This document shows, in pieces, positions 2,551 to 49,370 of a DNA stretch of 64,000 nucleotides; positions within the stretch are counted from its first letter, which is position 1; every line of letters begins with the position of its first letter. Position numbers and translations under genes: made by a program. The stretch spans positions 9,248,894-9,312,893 of the forward strand of contig NC_056002.1 of the NCBI RefSeq assembly GCF_018446385.1. The letters run 5' to 3'. The notes beneath the pieces were generated by a model. The model saw only the letters and a program-made list of their open reading frames with translations. It was not told the origin of the DNA and searched no databases. Origin of the DNA: Zingiber officinale (lineage: Eukaryota; Streptophyta; Magnoliopsida; Zingiberales; Zingiberaceae).

Positions 2551-5500
2551 ATGCCTTCTTCACCTTTGACCAGGCGCTCCCTAGTGACAGAGCTTAAAGC
2601 AGAAAGTGCCCATAAACGGGGCCACAGTTTTGAGAGAAAATATTCTCTCAAGGCCAAGGATGATGATCTATTCCTTTTTAACGAGTTGCAGAACCGTGAA
2701 AGAGACAACTTCTTGCTGCACTCCTGTGACGACTTTGATGAATCTATATGTAATATCAATATTCTGCTTTTGATTTCCTGATCTATAGACTTTATTCTTT
2801 AGATTTCTCATCTGTGTTTAAGTACTGATTTATACAAATTTGTCACTCATCTCAGCAAAATTGAGATATGTTTCGGATTTTAATCTTGGGATCACCATAC
2901 CAGTTCGAACAGAGAGAAATGGCCTACTTGATGCAGATGGTGAGAAGAATGATTATGACTGGTATGTTCCCTTACGTAAGAGGCTTTGTTCATTGGGTCG
3001 ATGACAATGTTAATAGTCACTCCACTATGTTGTAAAGAGACACTTAGGTGCTAAGAATCTGGAATAGACTATTGTTATATTTTTCCCGAGCATGGAGCAT
3101 GTAATGTGAAGTTTCTGTTGGTTCCTTAGCTGTTATGTTTTGAGCTTGCCTTTGTTTGTTATCCAATTATGGTATAAGAAGATAACAGTTTTGTACCTTC
3201 TCTTGGAAATTTAGCTATATCAAATCATGACTAATAAATTGCTTTCCATTCAGGTTGTTAACTCCTCCTGATACTCCTCTATTTCCTTCGCTGGATGATG
3301 ATGTGTCACAATCTCCAAATTCTTCTAGAGGCAGGACAAGAAGTCAACCTATTCCAATCTCGAATATATCAATGGTATGAATTCCCTTTTCTGACAACAT
3401 TTCATGTATGGGAAGTTTTCATTTTATCCCTCTTTCTTTCAAGTATATTTTTTGATTATTCTTCTTACAGTCTGCAAGGCCTAAAAGAAGCAGTGAGAGT
3501 CCACATAGATTAAGTTCATCTCCTAGCTCTAACTATAGCGTCTCCCGTCCAAGAAGTAGGCCATCCTCAGTTCCTCACTCAAGCCCACCTCCAATTCTTC
3601 GATCTGCAACACACTTGCGGAGGCCTTCCACACCTCCAACCAAATCATTGCCATCAGCTCAAATGTCTTTGACTCCACCATCACGGAGGATAAGCACTGG
3701 TTCCAGTATGCAGAAAGTCACTGGTAAAGCGGGCATGTCACCTGTAAAGGCAAATCGTGGGAATTCTGCCTCACCAAAACTGCGAGGATGGCCATCAAAT
3801 CTTCCTGGTTTCTCCACTGATGTGCCACCTAACCTTCGAACTTCCCTAACAGACCAGTCAGCAACACGTGTCCGTGGTTCATCACCGATATCTGGTAATG
3901 GAAGGGGGTCTATGTCGAAATATGGAAGGCAGTCAATGTCACCATCTTCTTCTAGAAGTACAATATCACCACGTAACAGTGAAGGTGACAAATTTAGCTA
4001 TATTAGCAAGCCATCTGCATCATCTTCCCAGGAAGATGATGCTCAATCACATGCTTCTGCAGGAGTTTTGGTTAATACAGCTACAAGGAAATATCAAAAT
4101 TTTGCACACAACAGAGCTCTGGGATTTTCCAAGAAACCTTCAGGATCTCTCTCTGCAAGTTTTGCTCCAAAAAGATCCTTTGATTTTGCTTGTAGGCAAA
4201 TGGTAAAGTGCTGTACATTGCTTTATTACTGCTACAATCTTTTGTTTAGGAGCATGTATACTCTTGAACACTCTTCAACCCTTGGCCCTCTGAAAATACT
4301 GGAAATTTGTTTGAGTTAGATTTTTGTTAAAAATGACTTTTTGCACTTCAACCATTCCTATACTAGTGCTGATTTTGTGAAATTACTCATTGTTAGTAAA
4401 TTCTTTATTCATTTCTCTCTAAAAACAAACTGAACTACTTTTGTTTGTCATCCTACCAAAATTTTGAGGTTGGTGGAATTGGTAAATCTAATACTTGAAA
4501 AGAATGGAGATTGTTGCATAGGAGCAGTCCGGTGCACGAAGCTCCTGCCATGTGGGGTCCCGGGGAAAGATCCATTGTACGCAGCCTTACCCTGCTTTTT
4601 GCAAGAGGTTGTTTTCAGGATTCGAACCCGTGACCTTTTGGTCACATGATAACAACTTTACTGTTGTGTCAAGGCTCCCCTTCAGATTGTTGCATAGGAA
4701 CTGAATAATAATCCTTTGGGTACATGAGGAACATGCATTTTTGTTATGCATGGTTATCAACTATCTTTATTCTTTATCATTTAGAAACTGACACTTGTAA
4801 TTTGTTCATATGGAGCCATAAGTGTGAACTGATTGTCTACCTGTGTGTTTTTTAGCTTCAAAGTCAAGTGTAGTTTTCTACTAATTGCATATCTGTTAAC
4901 TGCCTTTGTCTCATGAATTCTTGTTTTGTATATATTTTTTGCATACTTATATTATTATATTTGGAAAACTATGAAGTACTTTTACAGAATGTTTCTCATT
5001 AGATACGACTATGTTCGTTGGTGATAGGACTTAGAAGTTATTTTTATGAGTTATTGGTGTTATAATAGTATATATGGGTGTAATTCCACATGAGATATTT
5101 TACTCATGTGGTATTATATTGAGTCCTTTATACAATATCTTTGTCTCAACTGTTGGAATATATATACATACATATAATTTACACATTGTGGCATACATAC
5201 AGGAATATTTCATCATGTGTTCATCATCCTTGTGTGCTTCTTTTCTTTTATTTGCACTACCTTTGTGCTATTTCAGATTTTCTACCCCTTAAACCTTTTT
5301 TAATAAAAAAAGAATATGGTTTTGACTATGTTAGAATGATTTGATGCCTAAATGTTAGTTATATTACTAGCTAAATCAATTCACATTTTCTCTAAATTGC
5401 TTAACAAGGGTTCCCTCCTTTTGTACTTTCTTTTTTTTCCTACTTTAATATTCTAAAGTTTCGGTGATACTGATTTCGATATAGTACCAACATTTTGATG

Positions 5501-42611: not shown

Positions 42612-43079
42612 TGTCAACACCCAAAAACCAAGGAAGGGATCCCTATCGAAGGCTCTCCGACTCTTAAGTCAGTGTATGCTCAGGCTAGAAGTAAAGCAGT
42701 AGTAATCAACAGCAGGATGCGTGCTTAGTGTAATGAAGTGTGCACACCTTATCATCAGAAAGGATCCTTGTTTATATATCATCTTTATAACCTCCGCAAT
42801 CATAAGATGACAAAGAATATCGGATGTCAGAAGTTGTTAACCAATGGAGCATATGCATCTTAGAAGGCGTATAGCCAATCCAATAATTTTTTCGCTACTT
42901 ATGTGCGCTCTTTTTGTAACTGACGTCATTAAAGAAGCGGATGAAGAAATATGCTATCATAATATGTCGATTGAGAGGAAGTATAATCGTCTCCAAGGAA
43001 GGTTTCTTGGACCTGTATCATCTTAGAAGAATATTCTTTGACAGACGATTGTTATTCTATGACAATACTGTTCCCTGAG

Positions 43080-43268
43080 TATATCTCGATCGGGCGTTGA
43101 CTTGCCAGGGCGAATAATAAATGGAACATTGTGTTTTATGAGTATATCTTGGCCGGGAGTTGACCTGCCCGGGCGAATAATAAATGGAACCTTACATTTT
43201 ATGAGTATATCTTGGATGGAAGTTGACGTGCCCGGGCAAATAATAAATGAAACCTTGTATTTTATAAG
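43080..43268. repeat. Three 63-bp tandem repeats
   Basis: Units start at 43080, 43143 and 43206 with tatatctcg/tatatcttgg and share gttgac, gcccgggcgaataataaatg and ttttatgag. Confidence 0.85.
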
Positions 43269-43315
43269 GTTAGCCTACACTCTGCGCTGTTCTAATATAC
43301 ATGTGTGGTAATACT

Positions 43316-43511
43316 AGAGATATAGTGAAATACCGTCCGGTTCTTAAGGTTGCTCGAATATATGCTAGGAGTTTGGAGATTTGAGTAAAATACCGGCTGG
43401 TTCTTAGGGTCACTCGAATATATGCTAGGAGTCTGGGGATCTGAGTAAAATACTGTCCAATTCTTAGGGTCACTCGAATATATGCTGAGCGTCTGGAGAT
43501 CTAAGTGAAAT
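43316..43511. repeat. Three 60-bp tandem repeats
   Basis: Units of exactly 60 bp share ggttctta, gctcgaatatatgctagg and ggagat, unrelated in sequence to the adjacent 63-bp array. Confidence 0.85.
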
Positions 43512-44516: not shown

Positions 44517-45017
44517 TTGACCAACATGCTCTCTTCTTACAATACGAAATCCCTGAGAGTTATCCTATTCGCCTCCCTTCTCCTCAAGATCACCCCCATC
44601 GTCCTCTCTCAGGCTTTGCTACCTTCTTCAAGGACCAAATGAGAGCTGGTTTGCCATTTCCAATCCCTAGCTTTCTTTGTGAGGTAAGCCAGTATTTTAA
44701 CATTTCACTCTCCCAACTTACCCCAAATGAATTCCGCATCATGTGCGGTATGTTCATGCTATTTTGTTTGTTAACATTCCACCTACCCCTTATAATTTTC
44801 ACTTATTTATGTACCCTAAAAAATCAGAGTCAGGGGTCTTCTTATTTTAATCTCGCCAAAAGGCTGTATTTTTTAAAGACCATCATTCTTCCAACAAAAA
44901 GTGGAAGGATTGCTTCTTCTTTGTTGGTATATTTGAGCAAACTTCCTGACCTACCGCTTAGCGCTTAGACCTTCCCCTGCTTCCTAACCTGGGGAACTTC
45001 AAGCTAAACTCTATCTT
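44517..45017 (+). pseudogene. Tat-like Gypsy ORF1 remnant, copy 1 (part 1)
   Basis: Translation contains FKDQMRAGLPFPIPSFLCEVSQYFNISLSQLTPNEFRIMCGMF, the pattern annotated as putative gypsy-type transposon/Transposase_28 domain, found in ORF1 of Tat-lineage elements. The frame is broken and is then interrupted by the Copia element inserted at 45018. A second copy of the same domain starts near 53190. Confidence 0.65.
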
Positions 45018-45210
45018 TGTTGGTGCAATATTCCCCAGGTCAAGGTTGACCGTATTGACTGAGCTTGAATTGAGTCAAGCTCGAGTCTTGATGTCGTGGT
45101 TTCGATATTTGACAATACATGTAGTCAATACATGAAGATTGCAGGTGCAATTGTTCATGTGTGAAGGAGAGTCAAGTAGGTCAAGGTGACTGGATACTTG
45201 ACGAGAAAAT

Positions 45211-45609
45211 CCTGGTGAGTGAAGCCAGGTGAAAGACCTAGTGAGTGAAGCTAGGCAGAAGAGAAATCCTGGTGAGTGAAGCCAGGTGAAAGACTTAGTG
45301 AGTAAAGCTAGGCAAAAGAGGAAATCCTGGTGAGTGAAACCAGGTAAAAGACTTAGTGAGTGAAACTAGGTAAAAGGGAAATCCTGGTGAGTGAAGCCAG
45401 GTGAAAGACCTAGTGAGTGAAGCTAGGCAGAAGGGAAATCCTGGTGAGTGAAGCCAGGTGAAAGACCTAGTGAGTGAAGCTAGGCAGAAATGAAGCCCTC
45501 GTGAGTGAAGCCAGGCAGACATGAAGTCCTAGTGAGTGAAGCCAGGCAGACATGAAGTCCTAGTGAGTGAAGCTAGGCAGAAGGGAAGTTCTGGTGAGTG
45601 AAGCCAGGC
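45211..45609 (+). repeat. Hairpin minisatellite array in the 5' LTR
   Basis: Fourteen units of the form arm-tgagtgaag-arm. Arms mostly alternate between CCTGG/CCAGG and CCTAG/CTAGG. Twelve of fourteen units pair fully, counting G-T wobbles. Confidence 0.85.
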
Positions 45610-47357
45610 AAGGAAAATCCAGGCGGATTAAGGATGATCGGATATCTGGTGTTGGGAAGCCCAAGTAGGTCAAAAGGATTGACCGGATACTTGGCACGGG
45701 AAATCCAGGTGGATCAAGGTTGATCGAACATCTGGTGAAGATAAGTCCAATTAGGTCAAGGGTGACCGGACACTTGGTGAGCGAGTTCTAGCGGGTTAAG
45801 AGTGACCGGATGCTAGGCATAATGTACCAATAGGTATTTTCAAAATCAAGTCTAGGTTATCAAAATCTAGGGCTAGGTATTTTCAAAACCAATATCCAAC
45901 CATGTTCCTTGGGCTATAACTACATGATGTATGTATGATGTAACTACATGATGTAGTTATCAAAATACCTTTGGAAAACCTTGGTGAAGACTATCTTTTG
46001 ATAGTAATCATCATTGAATAGTTGAGCACAAACTTGAAGAAAACACTAAAGTTTTTACAAGTTTTCAAGATTATGTCAATCTTTGAAAATATGAAGTATT
46101 TTCTTAGAAAACTATTTTTCCATGATATTATATGCCCTAAAAAATGTCTACAACGATTTTTATGATTTTTGGAATTTTGTAGATTTTTCTAAGGGTTTCT
46201 GAAATTGACTGAAATGGAATTTCAGCATTTTCAGAGCTTCAATCGATCACCCGATCGATTGAAGGGTCTCAATCGATCGGGCGATCGATTGAGAGCAAGC
46301 TTCTCGCGAACAGAAGCTTCCTGGATCGATCCACCGATCGATCCAGCCTTCCTGAATCAATCAGTGGATCGATTCAAGCAGGTTCAATTGATTGGGACTC
46401 ACCTCCAATCGATTGGGAATGCTGATTTTGGCTGGTAAAGCCTGATTTCAGCATCTTGGACCTTTTTTAGTCTAGGTAACCATTTCTAATCCCTCAAAAC
46501 ACATTTGTATACAATTAGGGGGAGTTTTCATGATGAAAACAAGGACGGATTAGTTAAGGAAGACTAAGTAGAAGTTTAGATTGAAGTTTGGTTTCAATAT
46601 TGAATTGTTGAACCTCAAAACTTTTAATTTTGAGTTTCCTAAAGGTTTAGGGATTCCAAGTCATTGTTGGTGCAATGACAGAAGTCACATGCATGTCTTT
46701 AGGGGGAGTTACTCTTTAAGGACATGAAAAATTATTTTCATACACCTTGGAAGGTGGTTTTACCTTCTTTAGTGAAAATGCTCAAGGTTGAGCATTGGAA
46801 TACAATGGAGAGTGGATATCTTCATTGTTTATTGGTATATGCTCACGGATGAGCATTTGATAAAAATAAAGGGTATGAGACCTTTATTTGAATCGTGTTG
46901 TGCACAATGAGTGAAGTTGTGAACAACGGTGAGTAACTCTTCAGGGGGAGAGTTTCTTTTTGATGTGTGCCAATAGGGGGAGAATGAAGGGTTTAAGTTA
47001 GGCCTTCATTATCTAAGAGGGAGTTTACCCTCTTAGGGGGAGAATGTAAGGTTTAACTTACGTTTTCATTACCTAGTGGCATGAAAAAGGTTGAGGCTAT
47101 GGGACTAGCCTAACTTAAAGAAGGTATTGTCAAACATCAAAAAGGGGAAGATTGTTGGTGCAATATTCCCCAGGTCAAGGTTGACCGTATTGACTGAGCT
47201 TGAATTGAGTTAAGCTCGAGTCTTGATGTTGTGTTGATGTTGGAGTTTCGATGTTTGATAATACATGTAGTCAATACATGAAGACTGCAGGTGCAATTGT
47301 TCATGTGTGAAGGAGAGTCAAGTAGGTCAAGGGTGACTGGATACTTGACGAGGAAAT

Positions 47358-47724
47358 CCTGGTGAGTGAAGCCAGGTCAAAGACCTAGTGAGTGAAGCTA
47401 GGCAGAAGAGAAATCCTGGTGAGTGAAGCCAGGTGAAAGACCTAGTGAGTGAAGCTAGGCAAAAGAGGAAATCCTGGTGAGTGAAGCCAGGTAAAAGACC
47501 TAGTGAGTGAAGCTAGGCAAAAGGGAAATCCTGGTGAGTGAAGCCAGGTGAAAGACCTAGTGAGTGAAGCTAGGTAGAAGGGAAATCCTAGTGAGTTAAG
47601 CCAGGTGAAAGACCTAGTGAGTGAAGCCAGGCAGACATGAAGTCCTGGTGAGTGAAGCCAGGCAGACATGAAGTCCTAGTGAGTGAAGCTAGGCAGAAGG
47701 GAAGTCCTGGTGAGTGAAGCCAGG
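47358..47724 (+). repeat. Hairpin minisatellite array in the 3' LTR
   Basis: Thirteen units of the same type as the 5' LTR array; eleven keep fully paired arms (CCTGG/CCAGG or CCTAG/CTAGG). Two are mismatched. Confidence 0.85.
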
Positions 47725-48009
47725 CAAGGAAAATCCAGATGGATCAAGGATGATCGGACATCTGGTGTTGGGAAGCCCAAGTAGGTCAAAGGGATTGATC
47801 GGATACTTGGCATGGAAAATCCAGGTGGATCAAGGTTGATCGAACATCTGGTGAAGATAAGTCCAAGTGGGTCAAGGGTGACCGGACACTTGGTGAGCGA
47901 GTTCTAGCGGGTTAAGGGTGACCGGATTCTAGGCATAATGTACCAATAGGTCATAGGTGACCAGATGTTGGTTTAGGAGGCTTTAGACTTGATTTTAGGG
48001 AGAAATCAT

Positions 48010-48345
48010 GAGCTGGATCAATCAGCCGATCGATTGGCTCATGCCCAATCGATCGGCCGATCGATTGGGCGAGTCTTCGCGACAAGCCTCCTTCCAATCG
48101 ATTAGTGGATAGATTGGGACAAGTGCGCGATCGCACAGAATGACGCTGGATCGATCGGTCGATCGATCCAGATCCCCCAATCGATCAGTGGATCAATTGG
48201 GAGCTACGATTTCGCGCGATAAAGGCTAGATTGATCTGCCGATCGATCCAGGCAATTCCTGAGAGCACAGAGGCGCTCTGGATCGATCAGCCGATCGATC
48301 CAAAGCCTCCCCGATCGATTGGGAGCAATCCAATCGATCGGGATC
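48010..48345. repeat. Block of 20-28-bp palindromes built on CGATCGAT
   Basis: About seven palindromic or near-palindromic units. The clearest is a perfect 28-bp palindrome at 48043-48070 (left half gcccaatcgatcgg). Another at 48149-48174 has arms ctggatcgatcg/cgatcgatccag. A related block is at 46230-46425 in the internal region. Confidence 0.85.
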
Positions 48346-48862
48346 CGACCGTTGACGTCGTATTTAGCTGCTGGCGAGCTGTTCTCTCGATTGCACTTAC
48401 ACTGTTTCATCTCAGATCTTCACAGGGCTTCCAAAGCTTCTCCACAAAGTTCTCACCACCAGATCTTGAGGTTCTTGGAGGTTTGTCCAAGTCAAGAGGC
48501 GGATCTATAGCAGAAGAAGAAATCTAGGGTTAGGGTTTTTCTTGTGCAAACTTGTAAGCTTTTGCTTGTATTTTGTTCCCTTTCCCTTTCTTCTTGTAGT
48601 GTGAACTTGTAGGGCTTCTCCGCCTTTGGTAGTTACCATAAAGGAGTGTTTTTCATAGTGGAGGGTGCGTGAGTGTGTGGATCCTTGGATTAATCACTTC
48701 TTCTTGAGATGGATACCAAGTAAATCCTTAATGTTAGCGTTGTGTTTGTTTTCTTTGTAATTTCCGCTGTATATCCTTGAAGAAACAAGCAACGAAGAGC
48801 ACGACGAGCGCACCGAGCTATTCACCCCCCCCTCTAGCTACATAATCGGCCCCAACAATCTT

Positions 48863-49370
48863 CATATCCTTCTTGGAGAAAGTAGCTGGAGTACTGTTCT
48901 GGGCTCCCAATATGTTACAGGAAGGACTGTTGTTTTTATTTAGACATAATCCTGTCTGAGTGAAGCTTTGTTGCTCCTTTGGTAAAGTTTACAATTTGGT
49001 CCATTATATTATCCCTAACTAAGGTTTTCTTTGTTTTATGCAGTGAACGATTTCTTTGAGGGCATAACCTCTAAGTGTATACAACTAGAGGCACTACAAC
49101 AAAAGGAGCAGATGTTATGGACCGAGCGGGCTCAACAACTAGCCGACCCTTCTAGCAAGGCAATCGATAGCCACACAGCCAACCCTAGTGAAACGATCAT
49201 TCCGGAGGCCATGCCATACGCGCCTCTCCTAATATCTGAGGGTTCTTTTGAGGAAGAGTCATTGTAGAAGAGGCATAGGCTTATCCTCCCCACTCAAGCT
49301 CTTGAAGAACCTTCATCTCCCACTCCCATATCTTCATCCCATCTTGCGTCCATCCCAGAAGAGACCCAGG
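48863..49370 (+). pseudogene. Tat-like Gypsy ORF1 remnant, copy 1 (part 2)
   Basis: Resumes after the Copia insertion with SFLEKVAGVLFWAPNMLQEGLLFLFRHNPV-type text, matching the LLQEELLYMFKLSPTKF region of copy 2. The later part (49031-49267) encodes a Gln/Glu-rich stretch. Decayed and then interrupted again at 49371. Confidence 0.55.

Follow-up and report, generated by a model that had tools for sequence, protein, structure and literature searches.

Hairpin minisatellites and complementary stem types in a Sirevirus-like Copia LTR of ginger

The window, a stretch of 64,000 nucleotides of the ginger (Zingiber officinale) genome, contains a retrotransposon copy that spans 45018-48858 and is flanked on both sides by the target site duplication ATCTT, read directly at 45013-45017 and 48859-48863. 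Alignment to the sequence from 47153 onward delimits a truncated 5′ LTR (45018-45835, forward strand, beginning TGTTGG), and the 3′ LTR occupies 47153-48858 on the same strand (TGTTGG...CCAACA); LTR subregions (U3, R and U5) can be named here from position alone. The copy is a deletion derivative that lacks the gag region and whose 5′ LTR is cut at 45835. What remains of the interior is a 3′ non-coding region, referred to as the linker (45962-47152, forward strand), with AGGGGGAG tracts at 46517, 46701, 46943, 46975 and 47035 and a terminal tract, AGGGGAAG, at 47143. Near the 3′ end of the LTR, a poly-C tract (48825-48832, forward strand) lies at the position of the integrase signal when compared with the available part of the Sirevirus description (PMC2829016). 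At the deletion junction (45836-45961), ~37-49 bases match relatives in reversed orientation (e.g. 5384-5336 of the relative L021), possibly the trace of an inversion or a template switch. Upstream of the element, at 43069-43511, lie two short tandem arrays of 63 and 60 bases per unit.

Each LTR carries a minisatellite of hairpin units of the form arm-TGAGTGAAG-arm, with 14 units at 45211-45608 in the 5′ copy and 13 at 47358-47724 in the 3′ copy (both forward strand). The 5′ array is built on a 57-base dimer, the period returned by Tandem Repeats Finder, and some of its units differ by one base in the loop. An initial annotation, made by eye, had counted all but two units of each array as fully paired when G-T pairs are allowed; our count agrees, with 12 of 14 units paired in the 5′ array (failures CCTCG/CCAGG and CCTAG/CCAGG) and 11 of 13 in the 3′ array (both failures CCTAG/CCAGG). 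Around the arrays lie longer units with two nested stems, all on the forward strand: a hairpin GTCAAGTA/TACTTGAC ahead of the 5′ array (45171-45202) and five units following it (45619-45817), then a hairpin ahead of the 3′ array (47317-47349) and six units following that (47735-47972), for totals of six (5′ copy) and seven (3′ copy). The nested stems reported earlier at 45661-45694 and 47863-47893 are exact. The outer stem is weaker in some units, among them the fourth unit downstream of the 5′ array. The hand-chosen outer arms of the seven 3′ units, six bases each, pair at 38 of 42 positions with G-T allowed, and permuting the right arms gives this level in 4 of 5040 cases.

We compared minimum free energies with those of dinucleotide shuffles, 100 per strand, and report z values for the two strands. 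Both arrays fold better than shuffled sequence on the forward strand, with the 3′ array at −5.1/−3.1, the 5′ array at −4.0/−2.1 and none of 100 forward-strand shuffles as low as either, bearing in mind that the 13-14 units within an array are not independent and that the shuffles take no account of tandem duplication. The nested blocks gave −2.8/−4.9 (3′) and −2.1/−2.9 (5′), the block of ATCGAT palindromes downstream gave −8.5/−9.3, and the LTR end (48500-48858) showed no unusual folding (−0.6/−0.5). Forty 300-base control segments of the window had a mean z of −0.42 (sd 1.21), and since the three lowest reached −3.9, −3.6 and −3.1, the 3′ nested block (forward strand −2.8, −2.6 on repeat) lies within the control range by energy. 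Low values were also obtained for three segments of gag (−2.6, −3.2 and −6.8), the last of these being a stretch of L021 at 3700-4000 that folds unusually well. Searching 44800-49000 against Rfam with E ≤ 1 yielded 10 hits, all far below the gathering threshold, the best (46227-46304) scoring 30.8 bits where 90 are needed.

The same part of the LTR is rich in short palindromic sites. Several inner stems of the 3′ nested units are GGTCA(A)/(T)TGACC dyads, which we take to resemble the plant W-box core. W-box-like sites number 9 in 47153-48350 against 1.5 in shuffles (maximum 6), 1 in 48400-48858, and 0 in the linker against 0.8 in shuffles. Downstream of the nested units, a cluster of 12 ATCGAT palindromes at 48027-48340 compares with 0.38 in shuffles, and the motif's core is that of the Sirevirus Tnd-1 motif, ACAATCGATTGT, as given in the available text of PMC2829016. 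The cluster is followed by TATTTA (48361-48366, forward strand), a weak candidate promoter box proposed from its position, which was the sole match to the TATA patterns tried in 48300-48600, where the published consensus was not found. Together, the W-box-like sites, the ATCGAT palindromes and the weak TATTTA fit an enhancer-like region. The two enrichments would also be expected if DNA-level binding sites alone, palindromes and inverted W-box-like pairs, were kept and RNA hairpins were a by-product, as would the palindromic nature of the Sirevirus repeated motifs (PMC2829016, as excerpted), but we consider this unlikely, given the range of arms described below.

How the alternating stems arose can be read from the two LTRs of single elements. 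We assembled 18 candidate LTR pairs by distance and strand, with target duplications verified in the window pair only; five of them are 9-21 kb apart and possibly not true pairs. These yielded 160 shared units, the same in 90 and different in 70 (20 and 17 in the five distant pairs; 70 and 53 in the remaining thirteen). Among the 90 unchanged units, 81 were fully Watson-Crick, 3 contained a wobble and 6 were broken, whereas only 1 of the 70 differing units represented a switch between two Watson-Crick stems. For the 56 units with a standard stem in one LTR, 62 changes could be polarised, and 51 of these were C>T or G>A. Single changes left a wobble in 26 units and broke the pair in 24, with two changes in a further 6. 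Non-standard units that were inherited were broken or kept in proportions similar to new ones (6 broken and 4 kept versus 30 and 27; Fisher P = 0.74), a comparison that omits 13 changed units without a fully paired side.

The alternation within arrays is thus most readily explained by amplification, in 57-base steps, of an inherited dimer and not by maintenance in place, since only 1 of 70 differences is compensated, the changes are mostly C>T or G>A, and unit number differs in 13 of the 18 candidate pairs. The LTR-pair comparison rules out in-array covariation as proof of selection. Thus, the claim in the initial annotation that CCTGG/CCAGG and CCTAG/CTAGG covary divides in two: complementary change is found between subfamilies, as described below, while repeated compensation within arrays is not, and the simpler explanation offered at the time, amplification of a few founding palindromic units, fits the arrays with their dimer and variable copy number. 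Extended to the whole family, this explanation would hold that the units have no function and that C>T and G>A changes at mirror positions of the two arms mimic compensation. The dimer period, the variable unit number, the predominance of C>T/G>A and the near-equal split of wobble and broken changes all speak for it, as does the distribution of differences between the two LTRs, which are most frequent in the arms (90 of 1600 sites; loops, 27 of 1440; spacers, 124 of 3594). The 51 C>T/G>A changes lie in 40 CHH, 11 CHG and 0 CG contexts, however, so that a route through CpG and then CHG is not shown by present copies; with 11 of 51 in CHG against 40 in CHH, we also discarded the idea that deamination hot spots at CHG sites were responsible.

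We searched the genome (3.09 Gb, 211 contigs) and found 224,629 matches to the pattern CCTNG-loop-CNAGG and 300,707 exact-loop units of the form C...loop...G, a count that includes the linker unit CACAA/TTGTG. Among exact-loop units, the middle pair was T-A in 271,330, changed on the left only in 5,395, on the right only in 15,539 and on both sides in 8,443; reversed-pattern controls gave 129, 260, 69 and 533, respectively. After subtraction of the controls, double changes numbered 7,910 versus 1,018 expected, an approximately eightfold excess (odds ratio 27). One and the same loop is carried by several fully complementary stems, namely CCTGG/CCAGG, CCTAG/CTAGG, CCCGG/CCGGG, CCAAG/CTTGG, CACAA/TTGTG and CTTGG/CCAAG, the last occurring 1,227 times genome-wide. 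A binding site should keep its arm sequence, and although our searches fixed the loop, this variety of arms argues against a reading in which only DNA-level sites are kept.

Among the first 100 both-changed units listed, the middle position was complementary in 93, 50 units were fully Watson-Crick and 59 were paired when G-U is counted. Over 400 cells (four pairs per unit, selected middle pair included), 317 were Watson-Crick versus 231 when shuffled, a total reached in 0 of 20,000 shuffles. CCAAG/CTTGG accounted for 22 of these units, CCCGG/CCGGG for 20 and CACAA/TTGTG for 6, with the rest spread over 34 other arm pairs; as a small number of inherited stem types makes up these counts, units outnumber the independent events behind them, and when each of the 37 arm pairs was counted once the excess shrank to 91 cells versus 80.2 (reached in 176 of 20,000 shuffles). 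A divergent array (L077) shows CCCGG/YCGGG beside CCTAG/CTAGG, together with an earlier unit CCTAACC-AAA-GGTTAGG; since a similar unit, CCTAAC-TGGGAT-GTTAGG, occurs in other arrays, loops vary as well. The proposal that pairing outlives sequence change, with subfamilies differing by complementary stems, is partly supported: an excess of compensatory changes is seen in the counts, but independent events are few, and almost none fall between the LTRs of one element. This pattern bears on a functionless origin in both directions. CCCGG/CCGGG, CCTGG/CCAGG and CCTAG/CTAGG are connected by C>T/G>A steps, as that origin predicts, whereas CCAAG/CTTGG and CACAA/TTGTG need transversions that it leaves unexplained.

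We also considered whether single changes that leave a wobble outnumber those that break a pair, as a sign of pairing in RNA, and draw no conclusion, as counts conflict between data sets. Genome counts favour wobble at the middle pair (15,539 right-only versus 5,395 left-only), at L4-R2 (7,846 versus 4,783) and at L2-R4 (~3,900, scaled from 100 rows, versus 3,364), but sampled units go the opposite way at two of five pairs (L1-R5, 12 versus 24; L2-R4, 17 versus 29). Among the matches listed, 100 units with T at L2 comprised 63 CTTGG/CCAGG, 20 CTTGG/CCAAG, 15 CTTGG/CTAGG and 2 CTTGG/CTAAG; these counts, which serve as a non-compensating control, imply that copies differing in age or amount of change explain part of the double excess at L2-R4. 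The unit tables omit 124 of 801 loop matches, whose arms are more than three bases off the standard arms, and the loci are not a random sample, many having been found via similarity to the window copy; L057-L075 were taken from the top of the CCTNG-pattern list for contig C1, and L076 came from a separate search at L4-R2.

Hairpins are not confined to the tandem arrays, as the linker and the adjoining ATCGAT block likewise fold into hairpin strings. Within the linker, a run of some 13 hairpins, most with stems of unrelated sequence, selected manually from the fold and by eye, lies at 46660-47111 (forward strand), including one at 46903-46921 (forward strand) in which the loop TGAGTGAAG is held by the complementary arms CACAA/TTGTG. 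Folding gave z = −6.6 for 46650-46949 and −6.5 for 46900-47152, and the region 46650-47152 is single-copy, with two hairpins enclosing a polypurine tract and others adjoining one. That these hairpins are single-copy tells against the amplification of functionless founders.

In an alignment of 25 linker rows, 94.4% of 2,627 cells pair versus 93.4% when shuffled, a percentage that benefits from the structure having been modelled on the window row. Changes on both sides of a pair were found at 9 pairs versus 4.1 shuffled and in 21 cells versus 6.3 shuffled, neither value being reached in 500 shuffles, and slid controls gave 0-7 in each case. Three of the nine pairs are common to 3-8 rows and six occur in one row each; further pair types showed no excess in the linker (36 versus 34.7 shuffled, reached in 128 of 500 shuffles). 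For the 25-row alignment, the covariation term in RNAalifold was −0.44 kcal/mol and the program drew partly other, longer-range pairs; the small term and the differing pairs argue against a strong linker signal. A comparison of 14 near and 5 far rows (19 of the 25, with 6 unused) identified 3 pairs with substitutions on both sides that remain Watson-Crick, 5 with a one-sided substitution that can still pair, 4 that lost pairing, 1 that never paired, 92 unchanged and 7 ambiguous. Fixed differences were rarer at stem sites (17 of 217) than at non-stem sites (44 of 250), though not significantly so when set against within-group variation (P = 0.097). If the more frequent state is taken as ancestral, two of the three linker changes shared by several rows go from A-T to G-C, which counts against the functionless account; on balance we regard that account as rather unlikely.

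One linker stem is A-T in 17 rows and G-C in 8 of the 25, with zero one-sided rows, which is what would be seen if template switching during reverse transcription or replication copied one arm onto the other, creating or repairing hairpins in single events with selection unneeded. Template switching that makes hairpins has been described for RNA genes (PMC8794818, in the portion available). The perfect stems of unrelated sequence in the linker and the two-base difference per arm between CCAAG/CTTGG and CCTGG/CCAGG would suit such a process. At locus L073, on the other hand, CCAAG/CTTGG fills the slot where the window has outer arms CCAAG.../...CTTGG, which loop replacement explains equally well, and stems altered in one arm only, CCTGG/CCGGG and CCCGG/CCAGG, appear frequently among the matches listed; we hold template switching to be an improbable source of the pattern.

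We give about an even chance to an explanation in which structure is kept. The hairpin units would constitute a palindromic cis-region upstream of the promoter in a Sirevirus-like Copia LTR, and in transposing lineages LTRs whose units retain dyad symmetry would go on spreading, whether because transcription is driven by palindromic and W-box-like sites or because hairpins act in RNA. New stem types may then spread as tandem units, through slippage or unequal exchange in the course of reverse transcription or recombination. The data fit upkeep of the palindromes by selection and by a mutational process alike, and do not separate the two. More tentatively, and somewhat doubtfully, the whole 3′ non-coding part, linker and upstream LTR together, may form one continuous hairpin string in which stems were replaced in complementary pairs during spread, so that ~300,000 units would record how palindromes are made and kept, via selection on RNA or DNA structure or via template switching. 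With several stems around one loop and hundreds of thousands of units, the family could separate hairpin selection from mutational upkeep, and many hairpin-bearing elements are datable through their LTR pairs.

The affiliation of the family was read from the window copy and four relatives. Sense-strand frame listings of the relatives' internal regions showed long gag frames in L021 and L024 (597 and 531 residues), a gag split in two pieces in L022 and gag remnants beside other sequence in L023, with no pol-sized frame in any of the four. The one frame scanned, that of L021, matched zf-CCHC above its cut-off in two stretches (E = 1.4 × 10−5) and Retrotran_gag_2 below its cut-off (E = 3.5 × 10−4); this gag, which carries two zinc knuckles and is accompanied by no visible pol, lies at ~2595-4385. 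The family thus looks non-autonomous on present sequence, despite its very abundant units. Sirevirus features found comprise the five AGGGGGAG tracts in the linker, the terminal AGGGGAAG one base off and followed by AT/TG, the poly-C-rich integrase signal position at the LTR 3′ end, the palindromic repeated motifs within the LTR and the CCHC zinc knuckle of the L021 gag. The Sirevirus primer-binding site, described in the available text of PMC2829016 as TATCAGAGC after CA/ATTGG or CA/AGTGG, is complete in L021, follows AATGG in L022, differs within the nine bases in L023 and L024 and is deleted in the window copy. The CGG-CCG signature is absent from the window arrays and present in related units elsewhere in the genome. 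The element is a Sirevirus-like Copia LTR retrotransposon by these sequence features, with gag or gag pieces only in the relatives read; because no pol-sized frame appeared in the sense-strand listing of their four internal regions, we name it Sirevirus-like only. The word SIRE is absent from the main text of two ginger genome papers.

TR-GAG elements are non-autonomous elements with LTRs and a gag frame but without pol. The ginger family resembles them in its LTRs, gag frame, zinc knuckles and lack of visible pol in the four internal regions read. Sireviruses, in turn, carry palindromic repeated motifs upstream of the promoter in their LTRs (Bousios et al. 2010, PMC2829016, as available in part). 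In maize, the LTR palindromes have been reported to show predicted secondary structure and high sequence variability and have been linked to small-RNA targeting (PMC5311732 and PMC10760457, in their available parts, citing Bousios 2016); the window's palindromes similarly lie in the LTR regulatory region with predicted structure and variable sequence, and by analogy it is possible that the hairpins yield small RNAs, although the maize motif, CACCGGACNNNGTCCGGTG (PMC10760457, available part), differs from the window arrays. Among the literature titles listed, we noticed no covariation study of LTR palindromes. Set against the available text of PMC2829016, the ginger LTR has the many palindromic units upstream of the promoter region, the several AGGGGGAG tracts before the 3′ LTR, the AT/TG junction and the poly-C near the LTR end, and CCCGG..CCGGG units outside the window hold the CGG-CCG pair. 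It departs from that description in the 9-base asymmetric loop, the short CpG-free stems, the dimer and the nested two-stem units of the window, in the several stem types common to one loop, and in showing neither a pol-sized frame in four relatives nor the TATA consensus. The region in the window represents a novel version of the palindromic region already known from Sirevirus LTRs.
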